64,000 nucleotides of DNA from Pseudaquabacterium pictum (GTDB taxonomy: Bacteria > Pseudomonadota > Gammaproteobacteria > Burkholderiales > Burkholderiaceae_C): assembly GCF_005403045.1 (NCBI RefSeq), contig NZ_BJCL01000005.1, positions 62,001-126,000 of the forward strand. The letters are read 5' to 3'. The notes under the pieces are model-generated. The model did not search any database, was not told the origin of the DNA, and saw nothing but the letters and a program-made list of their open reading frames with translations. Numbering within the stretch: the first letter of the stretch is position 1; each line of letters begins with the position of its first letter. A program made the position numbers and the translations under genes. This document shows, one piece after another, positions 13,812-23,663 of the stretch.

Positions 13812-13933
13812 CCGGCGGCTGACAGCCGTCAAGTCCCCGCACCAGCTGGCCGATATGGCGAAGACCGGTGGACAGCCGCGGCCTGCGGCCGTGTCCGGCC
13901 GGCCATCCACACCACCGCCATTGGAGTTTGCCC

Positions 13934-14395
13934 ATGAAGAAGTTCGCCCGCTGCCTGTCCCTGGCCATTGCTGCCGCCGTGCTGTCCGTTCCGGTTGCCG
14001 CCGAAGTGAAGAACGCCACCAAGGACGAAGCGCTGGCCATGATCAAGAAGGCGGTCGCCCACTACAAGAAGGTCGGCAAGGACAAGGCCCTGGCCGACTT
14101 CAGCGCCAAGGGCGGGCCGTTCACCGACCGCGACCTGTATGTCTACACCGCCGACCTGACCGGCAAGGTCACCTCGCACGGCGCCAACGAGAAGCTGCTG
14201 GGCCGCGACCTGATGCAACTGAAGGATGCCGACGGCAAGCTGTTCATCGTCGAGATCCTGGACAAGGCCAAGGCCGGCAAGACGGGCTGGACCGACTACA
14301 AGTGGGTCAACCCGGTCAGCAAGGACATCGAGCAGAAGTCCGCCTACTGCGAGCCGCTGGATGCCCAGGTGATCTGCGCTGGCGTCTACAAGTGA
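13934..14395 (+). CDS. Periplasmic single-Cache-domain protein
   Basis: Secreted protein of 153 residues. A signal peptide (MKKFARCLSLAIAAAVLSVPVAAE) is followed by one small Cache-type sensor domain (ALAMIKKAVAHYKKVGKDKALADFS, then DRDLYVYTADLTGKVTSHG and KWVNPVSKDIEQKSAYCEPL). Such domains bind small ligands; here there is no membrane anchor or output domain. A GGAG ribosome site precedes the ATG. The chemoreceptor gene begins 34 bases downstream in the same direction, so the pair may work together, with this protein presenting a ligand to the receptor (inference). Confidence 0.8.
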   Translation: MKKFARCLSLAIAAAVLSVPVAAEVKNATKDEALAMIKKAVAHYKKVGKDKALADFSAKGGPFTDRDLYVYTADLTGKVTSHGANEKLLGRDLMQLKDADGKLFIVEILDKAKAGKTGWTDYKWVNPVSKDIEQKSAYCEPLDAQVICAGVYK

Positions 14396-14429
14396 GCGGC
14401 CGGCCGACTGACCGGACGAGGAGGTGCTG

Positions 14430-15992
14430 ATGTCGAGCCAACTCACGGTGTCGCAGCGGTTGTCGCTGGGATTTGCGGTGCTGGCGCTGCTGCTGCTGGC
14501 GGTGTGCGCGGCGTCCTGGTTGACCGTCAACCGCACCCAGGACATGGTATCCGGCGACTTGCGGCAGGCGCAGGACCGGCTGGCCCGCGCCAACGAGATG
14601 GTGCAGCTGGTCTTCGAGCAGGATCTGCATCTGCGCCAGGTGGGCCTGGTGACCGATCCGCCGACGATGGAGCGCCATGCCACCCTGGTGCGTCAGGCTG
14701 GCGAGAAGCTGGAGAAGATGCTCGATGCCCTGGGCAACGAGCCGGACCTGAGCACCGCCGAGAAGGCGCTGCTGGGCGAGGTGCGCAGCCTGCACGACAA
14801 GAGCAAGCCGGTGCTCAAGCGGGCGATGAACCTGGCACTGATGGTGATGCAGGAGGATGCCGCCAAGGTGATCACCGGCCAGCTCGACCAGTTGTCGCAG
14901 CAGCGGCGGGACCGGCTGCTGGCCTTCAACACGCTGCAGCGTGAGCAGGCCAGTGCCGCGGAGGCCCGCATCGGCGCCAGCAGCCGCCATGCGTCGGTCG
15001 CGATGCTGGTGGCCGCCGTCGCCGGTGTGCTGCTGGCCGCAGTGGCCGGCGTGCTGTGCACCCGCTCGGTGGTGCGGCCGCTGCAGGCCGCGGTGCAGGC
15101 CGCGCAGCAGCTGGCCGACGGTGACCTGCGGGTGCGCCTGGACAGCAGCCGTCGCGACGAATTCGGCCAGCTGCTCGGCGGCATGAACCGCATGGCCGAA
15201 TCGCTGCGCGGCGTGATCGGCACGATGCGCAGCTCGGCGGAGTCGGTGCGCAATGCCTCGGCCGAGATCGCCGCCGGCAACCACGACCTGTCGTCGCGCA
15301 CCGAGCAGCAGGCCAGCAGCCTGCAGTCCACCGTGTCGACGGTCGCCGAGCTGGGCGCCTCGGTGCGCCGCAATGCCGAGGCGGCCCAGCAGGCCACCCG
15401 GCTGGCGGCCGACGCCTCCGGCGTGGCCAGCCAGGGCGGTCAGCGGGTGGGCGAGGTGGTCAGCACCATGGACGAGATCAGCCAGTCGTCCAGGCGCATC
15501 GCCGACATCGTCGGCGTGATCGACGGCATCGCCTTCCAGACCAACATCCTGGCATTGAATGCCGCGGTGGAGGCAGCGCGCGCCGGCGAGCAGGGCCGCG
15601 GCTTTGCGGTGGTGGCCGGCGAGGTGCGCAGCCTGGCCCAACGCAGCGCCGGCGCGGCCCGCGAGATCAAGACCCTGATCAGCGCCAACGTCGAGAAGGT
15701 GGAAAGCGGCACCCGCCTGGTGGCCGATGCCGGCAGCACCATGTCGGACATCGTGCAGTCGTCCGAGCGGGTGGCGGCCATCATCAGCGAGATCAGCCAG
15801 GCCACGCAGGAACAGGCCAGCGGGCTGGAGCTGGTCAGCGGCGCCGTGCAGCGCATCGACGAAGCCACGCAGCAGAACGCGGCGCTGGTGGAACAGAGCG
15901 CGGCTGCCGCCAGCAGCCTGCAGGACCAGACCGTCCGTCTCAACGAGGCGGTGGGCGTGTTCCAGGTCGCCGATCAGTCCTCGGACCGGTAG
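14430..15992 (+). CDS. Methyl-accepting chemotaxis protein
   Basis: Transmembrane chemoreceptor of 520 residues. A first membrane helix (about 12-33) is followed by a four-helix-bundle type periplasmic sensor (about 34-188), a second helix (about 190-212), a HAMP domain (about 213-265), and a long coiled-coil signalling domain. The kinase-contact hairpin is IDGIAFQTNILALNAAVEAA...GEQGRGFAVVAGEVRSLAQR. It has no C-terminal CheR/CheB pentapeptide. The ATG at 14430 follows GAGGAGG; a GTG six bases earlier overlaps that site and is unlikely to be used. Its stop overlaps the end of the convergent anti-sigma gene by 19 bases. Confidence 0.95.
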   Translation: MSSQLTVSQRLSLGFAVLALLLLAVCAASWLTVNRTQDMVSGDLRQAQDRLARANEMVQLVFEQDLHLRQVGLVTDPPTMERHATLVRQAGEKLEKMLDALGNEPDLSTAEKALLGEVRSLHDKSKPVLKRAMNLALMVMQEDAAKVITGQLDQLSQQRRDRLLAFNTLQREQASAAEARIGASSRHASVAMLVAAVAGVLLAAVAGVLCTRSVVRPLQAAVQAAQQLADGDLRVRLDSSRRDEFGQLLGGMNRMAESLRGVIGTMRSSAESVRNASAEIAAGNHDLSSRTEQQASSLQSTVSTVAELGASVRRNAEAAQQATRLAADASGVASQGGQRVGEVVSTMDEISQSSRRIADIVGVIDGIAFQTNILALNAAVEAARAGEQGRGFAVVAGEVRSLAQRSAGAAREIKTLISANVEKVESGTRLVADAGSTMSDIVQSSERVAAIISEISQATQEQASGLELVSGAVQRIDEATQQNAALVEQSAAAASSLQDQTVRLNEAVGVFQVADQSSDR

Positions 15993-16168
15993 GCGCGCCA
16001 GCGGTCCAGCGCCTGGCGCATCACGGCCTGCTGGTCGCGGAAGCGCCGGCAGCCGCCGCAGGCCAGCCAGTGCAGCCGCAGGGACAGCGCTTCCAGCGCG
16101 TCCAGCGGCCGGTCCTGGCTCTCCAGCACCAGGCGGGTGACGTCGCGGCAGCTGCGGCGGATCTTCAT
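15974..16168 (-). CDS. Small zinc-finger anti-sigma factor (ZAS type)
   Basis: Soluble protein of 64 residues that should hold and inhibit the sigma factor encoded 25 bases upstream. It carries the zinc anti-sigma motif H-x3-C-x2-C (His33, Cys37, Cys40) plus Cys7, which in this class can sense oxidants by releasing zinc. No membrane segment is present. It resembles the short anti-sigma partner (MseR type) known with some betaproteobacterial ECF factors, where oxidative stress frees the sigma factor; that comparison is from memory of the family. Its 3' end overlaps the chemoreceptor gene tail to tail. Confidence 0.82.
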   Translation of the reverse strand: MKIRRSCRDVTRLVLESQDRPLDALEALSLRLHWLACGGCRRFRDQQAVMRQALDRWRAYRSED

Positions 16169-16193
16169 GGCGGGCTGGGGCGGGGCAAGGTGT

Positions 16194-16769
16194 TCAGGTC
16201 GGCTGGGCGCTGTTGAACCAGCGCTGCTGCAGGCATTCCCGCAGCCGCAGCCGCGCCCGGTGCAGCAGCACCCACAGGTTGGTCGCGGTGATCTGCAATT
16301 CCTTGCAGATTTCGTCGGTGCTCAGCTCCAGCCACTCGCGCATCATGAACACCCGGCCCTGTGCCGGCGGCAGGTGGTCCATGCAGGCCTCCAGCACCTC
16401 GAAGAACTGGCGCTGGCCCAGGTGCGCCTCGGGGCTGCCCCAGTCGGGCGGCATGGCGCGCCAATGGTGGCCTGCGGCGCTGTCGAACAGGCTCTCGTCC
16501 AGGTCCTCGCCGTCGTCGGTGGTCAGCACCGTGGCCTCGCGGGCATGGCGGCGCAGCTGGTCGACGACCTTGTTCTTCAGCACCGCCACCAGCCAGGTCT
16601 TGAGCTGGCTGCGGCCGGCAAAGCTGTGTGGCTTCTCCAGCGCGGCCAGCAGGGTCTCGCTGACGGCGTCCTCCGCCCAGGCGTCGTTGCGCAGCTGGCT
16701 GCGGGCAAAGCGCAGCAGCTGCGGGCGCAGCGCCTCCACCTGGGCGGCGAAGTCGACGCCGTCGTTCAT
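16194..16769 (-). CDS. ECF-type sigma-70 family RNA polymerase sigma factor
   Basis: Alternative sigma factor of 191 residues. Region 2 (LRPQLLRFARSQLRNDAWAEDAVSETLLAAL, then FAGRSQLKTWLVAVLKNKVVDQLRRH) and region 4 (LPPAQGRVFMMREWLELSTDEICKELQITATNLWVLLHRARLRLRECL) are both complete, with a longer than usual linker between them. The ATG at 16769 overlaps the stop of the nitrile hydratase accessory gene in an ATGA, so the regulator is translated as part of the enzyme operon. The zinc anti-sigma follows. Its targets may include this operon. Confidence 0.92.
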   Translation of the reverse strand: MNDGVDFAAQVEALRPQLLRFARSQLRNDAWAEDAVSETLLAALEKPHSFAGRSQLKTWLVAVLKNKVVDQLRRHAREATVLTTDDGEDLDESLFDSAAGHHWRAMPPDWGSPEAHLGQRQFFEVLEACMDHLPPAQGRVFMMREWLELSTDEICKELQITATNLWVLLHRARLRLRECLQQRWFNSAQPT

Positions 16770-17137
16770 GCCTGCGCCCAGTCCGCCGGCTCCAGCACGA
16801 TGGGCTGGCCGTGCGGCGTGCGGTCGGCGGCGTGGTCCCAGGCGCGGGCGCAGCGCGCCAGCTCATCGGCCTGCGCGGCGCCCTTGGCGGCCACCAGCGT
16901 CTCCAGCGCGGCCAGCCAGTGGTGGTAGTAGGTATCGCCCAGGTCGGCATCGCCGGCGGCCTGCGCAGCGGCGATCTGCGCCGACAGCGCCGCGGCCCAT
17001 TCCGGCCAGGTGAACAGGCCCTGCTGGTGCAGCTGCAGCACCATCGCGAAGGCCTGGGCCATCCAGGGTTCGGCGAAGACCGGGGCGCTGTCGTCGCCCA
17101 GCGGCAGGCCGGGGCAGCTGGCCAGATCCATGGTCAT
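16766..17137 (-). CDS. Nitrile hydratase accessory (activator) protein
   Basis: Protein of 123 residues that belongs to the nitrile hydratase beta-like accessory family (P14K/NhlE type), which loads cobalt into the alpha subunit through subunit exchange. It begins [25 protein letters not shown] and has the family stretch AMVLQLHQQGLFTWPEWAAALSAQI and YYHHWLAALETL. The ATG at 17137 overlaps the beta-subunit stop in an ATGA, and its own stop overlaps the sigma factor start. The long reading upstream to 17257 lies inside the beta gene and is rejected. Confidence 0.87.
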   Translation of the reverse strand: MTMDLASCPGLPLGDDSAPVFAEPWMAQAFAMVLQLHQQGLFTWPEWAAALSAQIAAAQAAGDADLGDTYYHHWLAALETLVAAKGAAQADELARCARAWDHAADRTPHGQPIVLEPADWAQA

Positions 17138-17808
17138 GCAGGGTCTCCGTCGTCGGGCTGCAGGTAGCTCTCCCAGGCATCCACCGACACCTGCAGGCCC
17201 GGCTGGGCCTCGGGGCCCCACAGCGTGGCGCCGTCGAACACCACGGTGTACAGCCACTGCGGCTGCTCGCCCCGGCCCTGGGCGTTGGTGTCGGGGAACA
17301 CATGGGCGCCATGCAGCCGGGCGATGGTGCCGCGCCGGCCCTGCGCATAGCCGGGCAGCCGGCTGTGGTGGTCGACATGGCCGGCCCGGGTGCGCACCGC
17401 ATCGCCCACTGCAAACCGGGCCGGACCAGGCGCCGGGCGATCGGTGGGCGAGCCCTTGGCCAGCACCGCCGGCACGGCATCGGCCAGCAGCTTGCGCGGC
17501 AGCGGCTTCGGCGGGTGCAGCAGCCGGCCGGCGGCCACTTCATCGGCACCCACCAGGCCGCGTTCGGCCATCAGGCGTTCGATGCCCGCCAGCCAGATGC
17601 GGTAGTAGCTGAGCCGGGCGTAGTCGGGCATGGTCTCGCGGGCCGAGCGGCTCTGGTCGATGTTCCAGGCGCCGGTGGCGCCCATGGCGAGGGTCAGGGC
17701 CAGGGCCTTGGGCTCGAAGGCTTCGTGCCAGAACTCGCCTTCGGCCTCGGGTGTCACCGGGCCATGACCGGGCTGGCCGCCCAGGTCGGCGTGGAATGCG
17801 TAGCTCAT
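17134..17808 (-). CDS. nthB: Nitrile hydratase beta subunit
   Basis: Beta subunit of 224 residues, the usual size. The N-terminal helical part ([17 protein letters not shown], then [18 protein letters not shown], and [21 protein letters not shown]) is followed by the C-terminal SH3-like barrel ([31 protein letters not shown]). It surrounds the metal site of the alpha subunit to form the nitrile-to-amide hydratase. The ATG at 17808 overlaps the alpha stop in an ATGA, and upstream in-frame sequence lies inside alpha. The alpha-before-beta order is the Fe-type order, although the alpha metal motif is of Co type. Confidence 0.93.
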
Positions 17809-18428
17809 GCCTGCGGGCTCCTGGCCAGGCCGGTGCCGATCATCGAATCCCGCGTCACCAGGTCGGCCAGCTGGTCCTCGGTCAGCCCGTCGGTGCCCGC
17901 CGGCCGCTGCGGGATGACGAGGTAGCGCACTTCCGCCGTGCTGTCCCAGATGCGGCACTGCGTGGCCTCGGGCAGCTGCACGCCGAAGTCGGCCAGCACG
18001 CCGCGTGGGTCTTTCACCGCCCGGCTGCGGTAGGGCGCGCTCTTGTACCAGGTGGGCGGCAGGCCCAGCACGGTCCAGGGGTAGCAGCTGCACAGGGTGC
18101 AGACCACCAGGTGGTGGGTGTCGGGCGTGTTGAACACCGCCACCATGTGCTCGCCCTGGCGGCCGGTGTAGCCCAGGCTGGCGATGGCGGCGGTGGCATC
18201 GGCCTCCAGCCAGGCGGCAAAGGCCGGGTCGGCCCAGGCCTTGGCCACCACCCGGGCGCCGTTGCGCGGGCCGATCTTGGTCTGGTAGGTGTCGACCAGC
18301 ACATCCAGCGCGGCCGGATCGATGTAGCCCTTCTGGGTCAGCACCGTCTCCAGCGCGCGCACCCGCAGGTCCATGGCGTCGAGATGGCTCATGCCATCGG
18401 CGTGGTCATGATCGTGGTCGTGGCTCAT
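17805..18428 (-). CDS. nthA: Nitrile hydratase alpha subunit, cobalt type
   Basis: Catalytic subunit of 207 residues that turns nitriles into amides. The metal-binding motif is VCTLCSC with Cys110, Cys113 and Cys115; Thr at the second position marks the cobalt class, where Fe enzymes have Ser. Cys113 and Cys115 are the ones oxidised to sulfinic and sulfenic acids in the family. The N-terminus is unusually His/Asp-rich ([14 protein letters not shown]), which could bind metal. The ATG overlaps the upstream PQQ dehydrogenase stop. No amidase gene is present in the window, so the fate of the amide is not shown. Confidence 0.95.
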
Positions 18429-19573
18429 GGCAAAACCCTCAGAACGCGCCCGTCGGCGTTGTCAGTCAGCAAGTAGAGCAGCCCGTCGGGCCCTTGACGC
18501 ACATCGCGGATGCGCTCGTTCAGGGACTGCAGCAGGCGTTCCTGCGCCACCACCTTGTTGCCGTCCAGCGTGATGCGCACCAGCGCCTGGCCACGCAGCG
18601 CGCCGATGAACAGGTTGCCCTTCCAGCCGGGGTAGCGGTCGCTGGTCAGGAAGGCCATGCCGCTGGGGGCGATCGAGGTGGGCACCCAGTGGGCCTGCGG
18701 CGCCACCACGTCGGCCCGCTCGGTGCCGTCGCCGATCTTGGTGCCCAGGCCGTAGTTGCGGCCGAAGGTGATCACCGGCCAGCCGTGGTTGCCGCCGCGC
18801 TGCACCAGGTTCAGCTCGTCGCCGCCCTGGGGGCCGTGCTCGGTGGCCCACAGGTCGCCGGTGGCGGGGTGGATGGCTGCGCCCTGCACATTGCGGTGGC
18901 CCCAGCTCCAGATCTCCGGGCGGGTGCCGGCCCTGCCCACCAGCGGGTTGTCGGCCGGCACCTTGCCGTCGGCCTCGATGCGCACGATCTTGCCCAGGTG
19001 GTTGTCCAGCGTCTGCGCATCGTCCTTGCGGCTGAAGCGGTCGCCCAGGGCGATGAACAGCCGGCCGTCGCTGCCGAACACCAGGCGGCTTCCGAAGTGC
19101 AGCTTGCTGGCCACCTTGGGCAGCTGGCGGAACACCACGGCCACCTCGGCCAGTCGCTCCGCACCCGGGGCGCCGTCCAGCCGGGCGCGGGCCACGGCGG
19201 TGCCGTTGGCGTCGCCGTCGGCGGCGGCCTCGCTGTAGCTCCAGTAGACCAGCCGGTTGCTGGCAAAGCGGGGGTCGACCACCACATCGAGCAGGCCGCC
19301 CTGGCCCTCGGCCACCACCGGTGGCAGGCCGGGCAGCGGCGGGCCCAGCTTGCCGTCGGCAGCGATCACCCGCATGCGGCCGGCCCGCTCGGTCACCAGC
19401 ATGCGGCCGTCGGGCAGGAAGGCCAGGCCCCAGGGGTTGACCAGACCATGGGCCACCACGGCCACCTTGGGCGCATTGCCCTGCGCCGCGGTCAGCGCCG
19501 GGGCCAGCAGGCCGGGCGTGGCCAGCAGGGCCAGGGCCTGGCGGCGTGTGGTGGTGGCGCGGGGGGATGGCAT
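18425..19573 (-). CDS. PQQ-dependent sugar dehydrogenase (soluble aldose dehydrogenase family)
   Basis: Periplasmic quinoprotein of 382 residues. A twin-arginine-like leader ([25 protein letters not shown]) precedes a six-bladed propeller of the Asd/YliI family: [79 protein letters not shown] and PSGMAFLT. The His and Arg residues in these blades bind PQQ and calcium in known members. The ATG at 19573 follows CGGAGA. The gene starts 20 bases after recJ and overlaps nthA, tying a periplasmic oxidase to the nitrile hydratase genes for no obvious metabolic reason. Confidence 0.9.
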
Positions 19574-19593
19574 CGGCGGTCTCCGGGGCAAGG

Positions 19594-21393
19594 TCAGGAC
19601 AGGGAGGATGTGGGGGCGAAGGCGGCTTCCACCACCATCTGCAGGCGCTGCTGGCCCTGGAATTCATCCAGGTTCAGCCGGTAGGCCAGCTGCACCCGCG
19701 CGGGCAGCGGCTCGGCATGGCCGAACCAGATGGCGTCGCGCAGCGTACCGGCATGGCGCACCCGCAGCTTCAAGTGCTTCTCGCCGACCAGGCGCTGCTG
19801 CAGCACGTCCACCTCGTCGCAGAACACCGGCGCCTCGAAGCCCTGGCCCCAGACCTGGGCGTCCAGCGTGGCCACGGTGGCGGTGTTGAACCACTCGCCG
19901 CCCAGCGGGCCGTCGGTGGCCACGCAGCGCTGCAGCGCGGCCGGCTGCAACGCCTCGGCAGCCACTTGCTGCAGTGCGCTGGCGAACAGCGGCCAGTCGG
20001 CCTCGGCCAGGGTGCAGCCGGCGGCCATCGCATGGCCACCGAAGCGCAGCAGCACGCCGGGGTGGCGCTTGCTGACCAGATCGAGCGCATCACGCAGGTG
20101 GAAGCCGGCGATCGACCGGCCCGAACCCTTCAGCAGCCCGTCCTGCCCGCGCGCCAGCACGAAGGTGGGCCGGTGCAGCCGGTCCTTCAGCCGCCCGGCG
20201 ACGATGCCGACCACGCCTTCATGGAAGTCGGGGTCGAACAGCACCAGCGCGGGCGGTGTCTCCTGTCCGGCGGGCTGGCGGGCCAGCAGCGCGTCCAGCA
20301 GCACCTCGGCCTGGGTGGCCATGTCGGTCTGCACCTCGCGGCGCTGGCGGTTGATGGCGTCCAGCGCCTGGGCCAGCTCGCCGGCGCGGGCCGGGTCGTC
20401 GGTCAGCAGGCACTCGATGCCCAGCGTCATGTCCGACAGCCGGCCGGCGGCATTGATGCGCGGGCCCAGGGCAAAGCCGAAGTCGAAGGCGGCGGCCCGT
20501 GCCGGCACCCGGCCGGCAGCGGCGAACAGCGCCGCCACGCCCGGTTGCATGCGCCCGGCGCGGATGCGCTTCAGGCCCTGCGCCACCAGGCGGCGGTTGT
20601 TGTCGTCGAGCTTCACCACATCGGCCACCGTGCCCAGGGCCACCAGGTCGAGCAGGGCATCCAGCCGCGGCTGCTGGTCGGCGGCGAAGGCGCCGCGCGC
20701 GCGCAGCTCGGCCCGCAGCGCCAGCAGCACATAGAACACCACGCCCACGCCTGCCAGGGCCTTGCTGGCGAAGCCGCAGCCGGGCTGGTTGGGGTTGACG
20801 ATCACATCGGCGGCGGGCAGCTGCACCGTGCCGTCGGCGCCCAGCGCAGGCAGGTGGTGGTCGGTCACCAGCACCTGCAGGCCCAGCGCGCGGGCATGGG
20901 CCACGCCGGCGCTGCTGGCGATGCCGTTGTCCACCGTCACCAGCAGCTGCGGCGGCGTGGCCGGGGTCTGCGCCAGGGCCAGATCGACGATGGCCGGCGT
21001 CAGGCCGTAGCCATGCACCAGGCGGTCGGGCACCACGTACTGCAAGGTGTCGGGTGCGGCGCCCAGCAGGCCCAGGCCACGCAGGGCCACGGCGCAGGCG
21101 GTGGCGCCATCGCAGTCGTAGTCGGCCACGATGCAGATGCGCCGGTGTGCGGCGATGGCATCGGCCAGCAGCACCGCGGCCTCGGTGGCGCCTTGCAGCT
21201 GCGCAGGCGGCAGCAGCCGGGCCAGGCCGTCGTCCAGATCGTCGGCGCTGCGCACGCCACGGGCGGCGAACAGCCGGGCCAGCAGCGGGTGCACGCCGGC
21301 CTGTTCCAGGGCGAAGGCGACGCGCGGCGGAACGTCGCGCCGGGTCAGGGTCTGCGGCGGCACGTCCCGGCGCTGCAGCGTGGGGCTGGTCAC
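19594..21393 (-). CDS. recJ: Single-strand DNA 5'-3' exonuclease RecJ
   Basis: DHH-family exonuclease of 599 residues used in recombination and mismatch repair. Catalytic motifs are visible: ADYDCDGATA near residue 88, VTDHHLP near 172, ALGTVADVV and GPRINAAGRL, followed by the DHHA1 domain (GSGRSIAGFHLRDAL, LLRFGGHAMAAG) and the C-terminal OB-like domain. The GTG start at 21393 overlaps the TGA of the upstream gene. This RpfE-RecJ order is common in betaproteobacteria and Xanthomonas. Confidence 0.95.
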   Translation of the reverse strand: MTSPTLQRRDVPPQTLTRRDVPPRVAFALEQAGVHPLLARLFAARGVRSADDLDDGLARLLPPAQLQGATEAAVLLADAIAAHRRICIVADYDCDGATACAVALRGLGLLGAAPDTLQYVVPDRLVHGYGLTPAIVDLALAQTPATPPQLLVTVDNGIASSAGVAHARALGLQVLVTDHHLPALGADGTVQLPAADVIVNPNQPGCGFASKALAGVGVVFYVLLALRAELRARGAFAADQQPRLDALLDLVALGTVADVVKLDDNNRRLVAQGLKRIRAGRMQPGVAALFAAAGRVPARAAAFDFGFALGPRINAAGRLSDMTLGIECLLTDDPARAGELAQALDAINRQRREVQTDMATQAEVLLDALLARQPAGQETPPALVLFDPDFHEGVVGIVAGRLKDRLHRPTFVLARGQDGLLKGSGRSIAGFHLRDALDLVSKRHPGVLLRFGGHAMAAGCTLAEADWPLFASALQQVAAEALQPAALQRCVATDGPLGGEWFNTATVATLDAQVWGQGFEAPVFCDEVDVLQQRLVGEKHLKLRVRHAGTLRDAIWFGHAEPLPARVQLAYRLNLDEFQGQQRLQMVVEAAFAPTSSLS

Positions 21394-22316
21394 AGCGCCT
21401 CCAGCACCGCGGTGGCCGACGGCGGCTGCCAGCGGCCGGCCAGGCGCTGCCACAGGCCCTGCCGGGCGGGCATGAAGGTCTGCGCGAAGCGTTCGCCGCA
21501 CAGGGTGAGCCGCACGTCGCCACCGGCGCGGGCCAGGGCGTCGATCGGGCCGGCGTCCAGCGCCCGCCAGGCCTCGCACCAGGCGGCCCAGTCCTCGTCC
21601 AGCGCGGGCTGGCGCAGGCGGTCGTCCACCTGCGCCGAGGGCGGCGGGGAGGCCCCGTCGGGCAGGCGGCCGCAGTGGCTGAGCCAGACGCTGTTGACCG
21701 TGGGCAGGCCGGCAGCCTCGCGCGCATCGTTCAGCGGGTGGGTGTAGAGCAGCATCTGCACCTCGTTCTGCAGCCGGCGGATCAGCCGCGCATCGCCGTG
21801 GCCGGGCAGCCAGCGGTCGATGTTGCGGCCGACCACGCGGTCCAGCGCGGCGGTGGCCAGGCCGTCGAACAGCGGGTGGCTGGCCAGCCATTGCAGCGGG
21901 CCGGTCGGGTGCAGGGTGAAGCCCTCGCTCTCGAACAGGGGGCGCACGGCGTCGAGCAAGCCGCGTGATGCCGCGTCGTCCAGCTGCAGGGCCCAGGGGG
22001 CCGTCAGGCTGACCTGGTCGGTGCCCACGTGCAGGTGTACAGGCGTCAGCAGGCCCCAGGGCTGGCTGGCGTCCAGGCCCAGCGCGGCGGCCTGGCGGGC
22101 AGCCAAGGGCAGGGCGGCATCGGGACCGGCTGGCCAACCCCAGGCCGTGGCCAGGGCCTGCTCATGCGGCGGGTTCAGGCTGTGGGCGTCGCTGCCCAGG
22201 CGTTGCCCCGGCTGCAGCCGGGCCAGCAGCTTCTCCAGCCGCGGCAGGGCCAGCGACTGCAGGGCCTGGTGGCCTGCCTCGGAGACAGTGCCGGCGAAGG
22301 GGACGATCAGGTGCAT
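21390..22316 (-). CDS. RpfE-like conserved protein (often annotated phosphoglycerate mutase)
   Basis: Cytoplasmic protein of 308 residues of the family that lies next to recJ in many beta- and gammaproteobacteria. It shows MHLIVPFAGTVSEAG at the N-terminus, PWGLLTPVHLHVGTDQVSL, LQNEVQMLLYTHPLND and VNSVWLSHCG. I see no metal-binding or catalytic motif of true phosphoglycerate mutases, so that database name should not be taken as function. The ATG at 22316 is preferred over an upstream start that would reach into the lolC promoter. It overlaps recJ by four bases. Confidence 0.75.
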   Translation of the reverse strand: MHLIVPFAGTVSEAGHQALQSLALPRLEKLLARLQPGQRLGSDAHSLNPPHEQALATAWGWPAGPDAALPLAARQAAALGLDASQPWGLLTPVHLHVGTDQVSLTAPWALQLDDAASRGLLDAVRPLFESEGFTLHPTGPLQWLASHPLFDGLATAALDRVVGRNIDRWLPGHGDARLIRRLQNEVQMLLYTHPLNDAREAAGLPTVNSVWLSHCGRLPDGASPPPSAQVDDRLRQPALDEDWAAWCEAWRALDAGPIDALARAGGDVRLTLCGERFAQTFMPARQGLWQRLAGRWQPPSATAVLEAL

Positions 22317-22411
22317 GTGCGACGCATTATCCGGGCCGGGCTCTGGCCGGCGCCGCGGCGGGCCCACTGTTAGCATCCCGCGCCTATGGCTTCTTCCCCT
22401 GGCCGGCCCGC

Positions 22412-23663
22412 ATGAACTGGCCCTATGAATGGCAGATCGGCTGGCGCTACACCCGCGCCGGTCGGGTCGGTCGGCGCAACGGCTTCATCTCCTTCATCTC
22501 GCTGGTGTCGATGCTGGGCATCGCGCTGGGCGTGGCGGCGCTGATCATCGTGCTGAGCGTGATGAACGGCTTCCAGAAGGAAGTGACCGACCGCATGCTC
22601 AGCGTGGTGGCCCACATCGAGGTGTTCGACGTGCAGGGCAATGCCCTGGCCGACTGGCGCGCCACCGCCGCCGCCGCGCAGAAGAACCCCGCCGTGGTGG
22701 CCGCCGCGCCCTTCATCACGCAGCAGTCGCTGATCGCCCGCGGCGACGAGATGCGCGGCGCCATCGTGCGCGGTGTCGACCCGGCCGAGGAACTGAAGGT
22801 GACGCCGCTGGCCGCGCAGATGGCCCAGAGCGGCCTGCTGGGCCAGCTGCAGCCCGGTGCCTGGCGCATCGTGCTCGGTGCCGAGCTGGCACGCCAGCTG
22901 CGCGTGCGGGCCGGCGACAGCGTCACCCTCGTGGCACCGGGCGGCCAGGTGACGCCGGCGGGCACGGTGCCGCGGCTCAAGAGCTTCACCGTGGCCGGCA
23001 CCTTCGACGCCGGCCACTACGAGTACGACAGCGGCCTGGCGCTGATCCATGTGGAGGACGCGGCCCGCCTGTACCGGCTGGACGGCCCCAGCGGCGTGCA
23101 GCTGAAGCTGGCCGACCTGCACCAGGCCCGCGCCGTGGCCCAGCAGCTGGTCGACAGCCTGCAGCCCGGCCTGCTGGTGCGCGACTGGACCCGCACCAAC
23201 CGCAACTGGTTCGACGCGGTGCAGCTGGAGAAGCGGCTGATGTTCATCATCCTGACGCTGATCGTCGCGGTGGCGGCGTTCAACCTGGTCAGCACCCTGG
23301 TGATGACGGTGACCGACAAGCGCGCCGACATCGCCATCCTGCGCACCCTGGGCGCCAGCCCGCGGTCGGTGATGGGCATCTTCGTTGTGCAGGGTGCGGC
23401 CAGCGGGGTGATCGGCACGCTGTCGGGTGTGGCTTTCGGCCTGCTGGTGGCGCTGAACATCGGCACCCTGGTGCCGGCGCTGGAGCGGCTGCTGGGCGTG
23501 GCCTTCCTGCCCGGCAGCATCTACGTGATCAGCCGCATGCCCAGCGACCCGCGCATGAGCGACGTGCTGCCGATCACGCTGATCTCGCTGCTGCTGGCCT
23601 TCCTGGCCACGCTGTACCCCAGCTGGCGCGCCAGCCGCGTCAATCCGGCGGAAGCCCTGCGCT

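Follow-up and report, generated by a model that had tools for sequence, protein, structure and literature searches.

In meningococci, the extracytoplasmic function (ECF) sigma factor SigE is followed by a small zinc anti-sigma factor, NMB2145, and reads promoters with a -35 element GTMAGBWTT and a -10 element CGTCTAAH set 12-13 bases apart (PMC2893595). Under its control are a methionine sulfoxide reductase and an operon with DoxX, within which its own gene lies, and it is autoregulated (PMC2893595). The RpoE2/HrsE system of Haemophilus influenzae likewise consists of a group 13 ECF sigma factor and a zinc peptide anti-sigma factor; RpoE2 takes part in the hypochlorite response and controls methionine sulfoxide reductases, and by locus tags the DoxX cluster of this species lies apart from the pair (PMC7907618). 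A DUF2282 precursor together with MNIO, DUF2063 and DoxX proteins makes up a bufferin cluster (PMC12452194). Here we describe an ECF sigma/zinc anti-sigma pair that trails a nitrile hydratase operon in a stretch of 64,000 nucleotides from Pseudaquabacterium pictum (contig NZ_BJCL01000005.1, positions 62,001 to 126,000; hereafter the window). Comparison with related genomes suggests that it is probably the orphaned regulator of a bufferin locus and still serves msrPQ together with a catalase-like and a DUF1223 gene, not nitrile hydratase.

The features concerned are as follows:

19594-21300, minus strand: recJ (in-frame part covered by the search), ending 20 bases before the dehydrogenase gene
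18425-19573, minus strand: glucose/sorbosone dehydrogenase-type (GSDH) protein, PF07995, heading the tight cluster
17805-18428, minus strand: nthA, nitrile hydratase alpha subunit, cobalt type (TIGR01323; motif VCTLCSC)
17134-17808, minus strand: nthB, nitrile hydratase beta subunit (TIGR03888)
16766-17137, minus strand: nitrile hydratase accessory protein (TIGR03889)
16766-16769, minus strand: ATGA, shared by the stop of the accessory gene and the start of sigma; the position held by bufDCBA (on the other strand) in the relatives G296 and G227
16194-16769, minus strand: ECF sigma factor of NF009173/TIGR02943 type
15974-16168, minus strand: zinc anti-sigma factor, NF052368, with Cys7, His33, Cys37 and Cys40

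These coordinates agree with the six-gene order given in a preliminary description of this DNA, with exact four-base overlaps at four junctions (18425-18428, 17805-17808, 17134-17137 and 16766-16769) and a gap of 25 bases (16169-16193) between sigma and anti-sigma. The sigma factor contains sigma regions 2 and 4 and scored 285.5 bits against NF009173 (cut-off 255) and 240.5 against TIGR02943 (cut-off 162.2). Its partner scored 64.9 bits against NF052368 (cut-off 50), had no Pfam match at 0.001, and fits the zinc anti-sigma pattern C/H-X23-26-H-X3-C-X2-C through the four residues listed above, the ligand set of redox-type systems that had been recognised from the start. Their spacing is identical to that of Cys4-His30-Cys34-Cys37 in NMB2145 (PMC2893595) and is that of RsrA too. 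The likeness to SigE and RpoE2 is judged from the promoter type, the anti-sigma ligands and the genes nearby, not from comparison of the sigma proteins. The operon that the pair follows has the alpha, beta and accessory genes and the VCTLCSC motif of a cobalt nitrile hydratase; NthA scored 304.4 bits against TIGR01323 (cut-off 249.85), and its top solved-structure matches are of the Co type. In gene set and alpha motif it is thus like other cobalt nitrile hydratase operons, from which it differs in having a dehydrogenase-type gene at its head and the sigma/anti-sigma pair behind it.

The adjacency is rare. Two surveys were made, of 299 genomes of the family, many of them fragmented, and of 21 genomes of the genus, both including the window genome (G000, 99.97% complete as given). 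Nitrile hydratase alpha matches occurred in 51 of the family genomes (33 above the cut-off), and the sigma factor exceeded its cut-off in 123. Among the matches listed, the two lay no more than 5 kb apart in only three family genomes (G000, G227 and G296), which belong to a single genus. When 80 of the 322 nitrile hydratase loci found were examined by tblastn with the window proteins, with flanks of up to 7 kb, the sigma factor was present in one and the dehydrogenase in three, which bears out the earlier remark that such a neighbour is unusual. The titles and abstract openings of the papers listed in a search for nitrile hydratase with a sigma factor contained no report of this arrangement. 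Short nitrile hydratase alpha-like fragment groups were also seen (G014:C3:19518-22678; G083:C381 and C587), and these are possibly NHLP-type peptide precursors.

The usual neighbour of the sigma factor is a bufferin operon. Within about 1.5 kb of it at the 30 family sigma loci with the highest scores, the anti-sigma gene was found in all 30, a DUF2282 gene in 25 and nitrile hydratase genes in none; one of the five loci without a DUF2282 gene (L117) ends early. Seven such sigma/bufferin loci (L116, L119, L121, L124, L126, L134 and L137) have a pyroglutamyl peptidase gene adjoining the anti-sigma gene, as is seen near the window pair. In G296 (L032/L142) and G227 (L141), some 2.6-2.8 kb separates the accessory gene from the sigma gene, and this stretch encodes, on the opposite strand, DoxX, DUF2063, MNIO (DUF692) and a DUF2282 precursor. 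For L032, DoxX, MNIO and DUF2282 were confirmed by Pfam, and DUF2063 was recognised only from its position and by visual inspection. Bufferin-1 clusters with sigma genes have this same gene set; the anti-sigma factor named for them is NrsF-like and not a zinc anti-sigma factor (PMC12452194), and Caulobacter SigF/NrsF was rejected as a model on account of its different anti-sigma factor (PMC3511200). No such cluster was found in the window genome: a genome-wide search returned 0 matches to PF05114 and 0 to PF10048, with no MNIO or DUF2282 gene found, and relocation of the bufferin genes within this genome was rejected on this result. Each family was present in 18 of the 21 genus genomes, the exceptions being G000, G306 (70% complete) and G311 (91%).

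Across the genus, the sigma factor was found at 77% identity or more in 10 of the 21 genomes, in several arrangements. The closed-up order accessory-sigma-anti-sigma occurs in three (G000, G305 and G312; the G312 contig stops inside nthB, and its nthA was therefore not seen), and the bufferin operon intervenes in G296 and G227. Sigma and nitrile hydratase lie on separate contigs in G308 and G309, and in G011, G143 and G304 the sigma gene accompanies bufferin genes and nitrile hydratase was not found. The pair is gone from the locus in G310 and G314, where pcp directly follows the accessory gene, and absent there in G311, the contig of which is short. Of the two findings that the preliminary description had named as counting against its view, the first, an order unique to the window genome, is not seen, since accessory-sigma-anti-sigma recurs in these genomes; the second is seen, the pair being present at loci that have no nitrile hydratase and its likely targets being others. 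The accessory-sigma junction is an ATGA overlap in the window genome, a gap of 19 bases in G305 and one of 11 bases in G312 (a TTGA overlap if the start is TTG). In a two-gene tree, G310 fell within the group of G312 and G000, whereas G305 grouped with G311 in another part of the tree; the deep branches were weakly supported. One deletion with a later loss in G310 and several separate deletions are both possible on this sequence evidence. G305 and G312 retain MNIO/DUF2282 clusters elsewhere in the genome, and the sequence examined around these showed no promoter-type site.

The loci that retain the operon also indicate which promoters the sigma factor may read. We compared 33 distinct bufA-sigma intervals from 39 loci (two of the 33, L032 and L142, are the same locus), dropping those above 1200 bases, L152 included. 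A site GTAAG-N16/17-NGAC faces bufA in all 33, with CGAC in 31; in the L141 and L142 stretches the bufA site is the sole one. If the -35 block is counted as nine bases long, 12-13 bases remain for the spacer, and the resulting GTAAG plus four bases, 12-13 bases and CGAC resembles the SigE -35 and -10 elements (PMC2893595). The promoter type was matched in silico, and its use by the window sigma factor is a prediction. In four loci (L118, L123, L155 and L159) the bufA-sigma interval measures 730-867 bases, seems by eye to contain a thioredoxin/TlpA-like gene and, in three of the four, has two motif sites; a TlpA-like gene in G227 is likewise preceded by a site (L222:5268-5796). In G143 (L224:5209-5595), a sigma-type site stands at the start of a short protein that looks by eye like DUF4242.

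The window itself contains no GTAAG-N16/17-NGAC site on either strand, the region upstream of recJ, where a look for ECF promoter motifs had been proposed, included. Sites with one mismatch number 13 in the whole window; two of these fall between 15900 and 22700 (18993 and 16306), both within coding sequence. Elsewhere in the window genome, GTAAG-N16/17-CGAC occurs four times and the stricter GTAAGRA-N14/15-SGAC once. One site lies 26 bases ahead of the ATG of msrP (MsrP, 472.3 bits against a cut-off of 207), with msrQ next; another is 85 bases ahead of the start used for a catalase-like gene (PF00199), and a third precedes a DUF1223 gene. The catalase-like and DUF1223 proteins look by eye as if they carry export signals. 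No gene start was found behind the fourth site (G000:C3:555948), which was treated as chance.

These sites recur in relatives. The msrP site is shared by G000, G296, G312, G310 and G227, the assignment of MsrP coming from NCBIfam in G000 and G227 and from evident sequence similarity in G296, G312 and G310, and a search of seven genus genomes for the sites showed no msrP site in G305 (82% complete) or G306 (70%). The catalase site is found in six of the seven genus genomes holding the gene, G000 included, and the DUF1223 site also in G305. The number of shared targets expected by chance is about 1e-4, a rough figure that assumes 5500 genes per genome. Of 45 catalase-like places found in the family, 34 were examined, the remaining ones having no locus, and GTAAG-N16/17-[CG]GAC stood within 250 bases upstream in 17 of the 34, compared with a background of 8 sites per 2.2 million strand-bases in the 80 nitrile hydratase loci. 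The site was present in 13 of the 18 genomes that hold a sigma ortholog (defined by a best E of 1e-40 or lower, or at least 77% identity) and in 4 of the 16 without (Fisher p = 0.015, uncorrected for kinship; p = 0.0016 minus the incomplete G306 and the paralog-bearing G310).

The sigma gene is not visibly decaying. Both genes of the pair are open, with no stops in sigma or anti-sigma and all zinc ligands present, in the three closed-up species, and the ligands are conserved in 10 of 10 aligned anti-sigma factors. The ratio of non-synonymous to synonymous substitution rates (dN/dS) was 0.32-0.48 for sigma among the closed-up genomes, 0.32 for recJ (one pair) and 0.28-0.42 for the accessory gene, with the reservation for all such ratios that Nei-Gojobori dS is unreliable at ~72% GC. 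By this measure the sigma gene is under constraint near that of recJ and the accessory gene.

The array is real and rare, and we consider it likely that a deletion caused it and that the regulon lies elsewhere; the kind of regulator is known and its arrangement is new. The ancestral order would have been recJ, dehydrogenase, nthA, nthB and accessory gene, then a convergent bufD-C-B-A and, divergent from it, sigma and zinc anti-sigma. Loss of bufDCBA (~2.6 kb) would have put sigma at the end of the nitrile hydratase operon, to be transcribed now by read-through from the nitrile hydratase run and translated, presumably, via stop-start coupling. On the model of RpoE2/HrsE and of SigE with NMB2145, which we take to be the protein named MseR, the zinc anti-sigma factor would keep sigma bound until stress frees it, the signal probably being oxidation of thiols. 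Freed sigma would then read GTAAG-N16/17-CGAC promoters, its predicted targets in G000 being msrPQ (periplasmic methionine-sulfoxide repair), the catalase-like protein and the DUF1223 protein. The corresponding meningococcal target is MsrAB; unlike meningococci, the window genome lacks the DoxX-containing operon, and its pair trails nitrile hydratase. It differs in this from H. influenzae also, which keeps its DoxX cluster and msrAB (PMC7907618).

Several observations weigh against this explanation. No site faces sigma in any of the 33 bufA-sigma intervals, whereas meningococcal SigE is autoregulated, and oxidative stimuli left SigE expression unaltered in meningococci (PMC2893595), so that redox release is unsettled in the nearest model. 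The catalase site of G312 is degenerate (GTCAGG), and four catalase genes carry the site in genomes without a sigma ortholog, as counted above. In G310, the nearest relative by nthA, the pair is absent at the locus and only a 54% relative is found, yet the catalase and msrP sites are kept; another sigma factor may read them there. A backwards control pattern gave more matches in G000 than the real one (81 versus 4, and 12 versus 1) because the composition differs, and it offers no usable chance rate. Finally, the anti-sigma gene evolves faster in all pairs by the same estimate, with dN/dS of 0.39-0.73 among the closed-up genomes and 0.55 and 0.78 in two other relative pairs.

The preliminary description had tied the pair to the nitrile or metal chemistry of its operon. 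Regulation of nitrile hydratase in response to oxidants or metals would suit the four-base overlaps and common strand, the close-up in three genomes and the zinc ligand set, but we regard it as very improbable: the promoter type is missing from the window, where the only near matches around the operon are the two within coding sequence; 79 of the 80 nitrile hydratase loci showed no such sigma factor; the sole site in L141 and L142 belongs to bufA; and three of the four genomic sites precede msrPQ, the catalase-like gene and the DUF1223 gene instead. Insertion or transfer of the pair beside nitrile hydratase, never bufferin-linked here, is scarcely credible. Its position directly after the accessory gene in only 3 of 21 genus genomes would be explained, whereas G296 and G227 have the same flanking genes (recJ and the dehydrogenase gene at one end, pcp at the other) with the bufferin operon in between, and the window sigma factor is 75-78% identical to their copies; a recent gain was rejected on this synteny.

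The absence of detectable bufferin genes from G000, the loss of the pair from the locus in G310, G314 and G311 (on its short contig) and the high anti-sigma ratios would also be expected of a remnant without function that is being lost now that its main target has gone. Such a fate seems rather unlikely to us for two genes that are open with every zinc ligand in three species, with a sigma factor as constrained as its neighbours and three recurring promoter sites in G000. It is conceivable too, if improbable, that the close-up was kept as useful: transcription of nth would set the amounts of sigma and anti-sigma together, and growth on nitriles would pre-load defence against peroxide and the repair of methionine sulfoxide. 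The enzyme operon would then act on the regulator, and not the reverse.

As for the surroundings, the end of recJ is only 20 bases ahead of the dehydrogenase start, therefore the same-strand run starts further upstream than first described, and recJ is possibly on the same transcript as the nitrile hydratase run. The dehydrogenase adjoins recJ also in G296, G227, G305, G310 and G311. It had been called a PQQ (pyrroloquinoline quinone) sugar dehydrogenase; membership of PF07995 holds, and PQQ is a guess at family level only, with a TIGR03606 score of 131.2, far under the cut-off of 434.55. A simple scan of 15900-22600 revealed no sigma-70-like promoter and no terminator, such scans being weak at this base composition, and an Rfam scan of the window at the gathering threshold gave 0 matches. 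Between pcp and the anti-sigma gene (13868-15992) lie genes for a Cache-domain protein and a methyl-accepting chemotaxis protein, the latter convergent with the anti-sigma gene and overlapping its 3' end by 19 bases; a similar pair is present in G312 (L210).

If this explanation is true, a stress sigma factor has outlived its usual partner operon and been absorbed into an unrelated metabolic operon, keeping its distant target sites. It would also be a caution that operon membership is not to be read as regulation. The locus offers a testable regulon (msrPQ, the catalase-like gene and the DUF1223 gene) for a SigE/RpoE2-like system in a genome in which no bufferin genes were found, and such a regulon would set repair, as a role of these sigma factors, apart from their link to bufferins.

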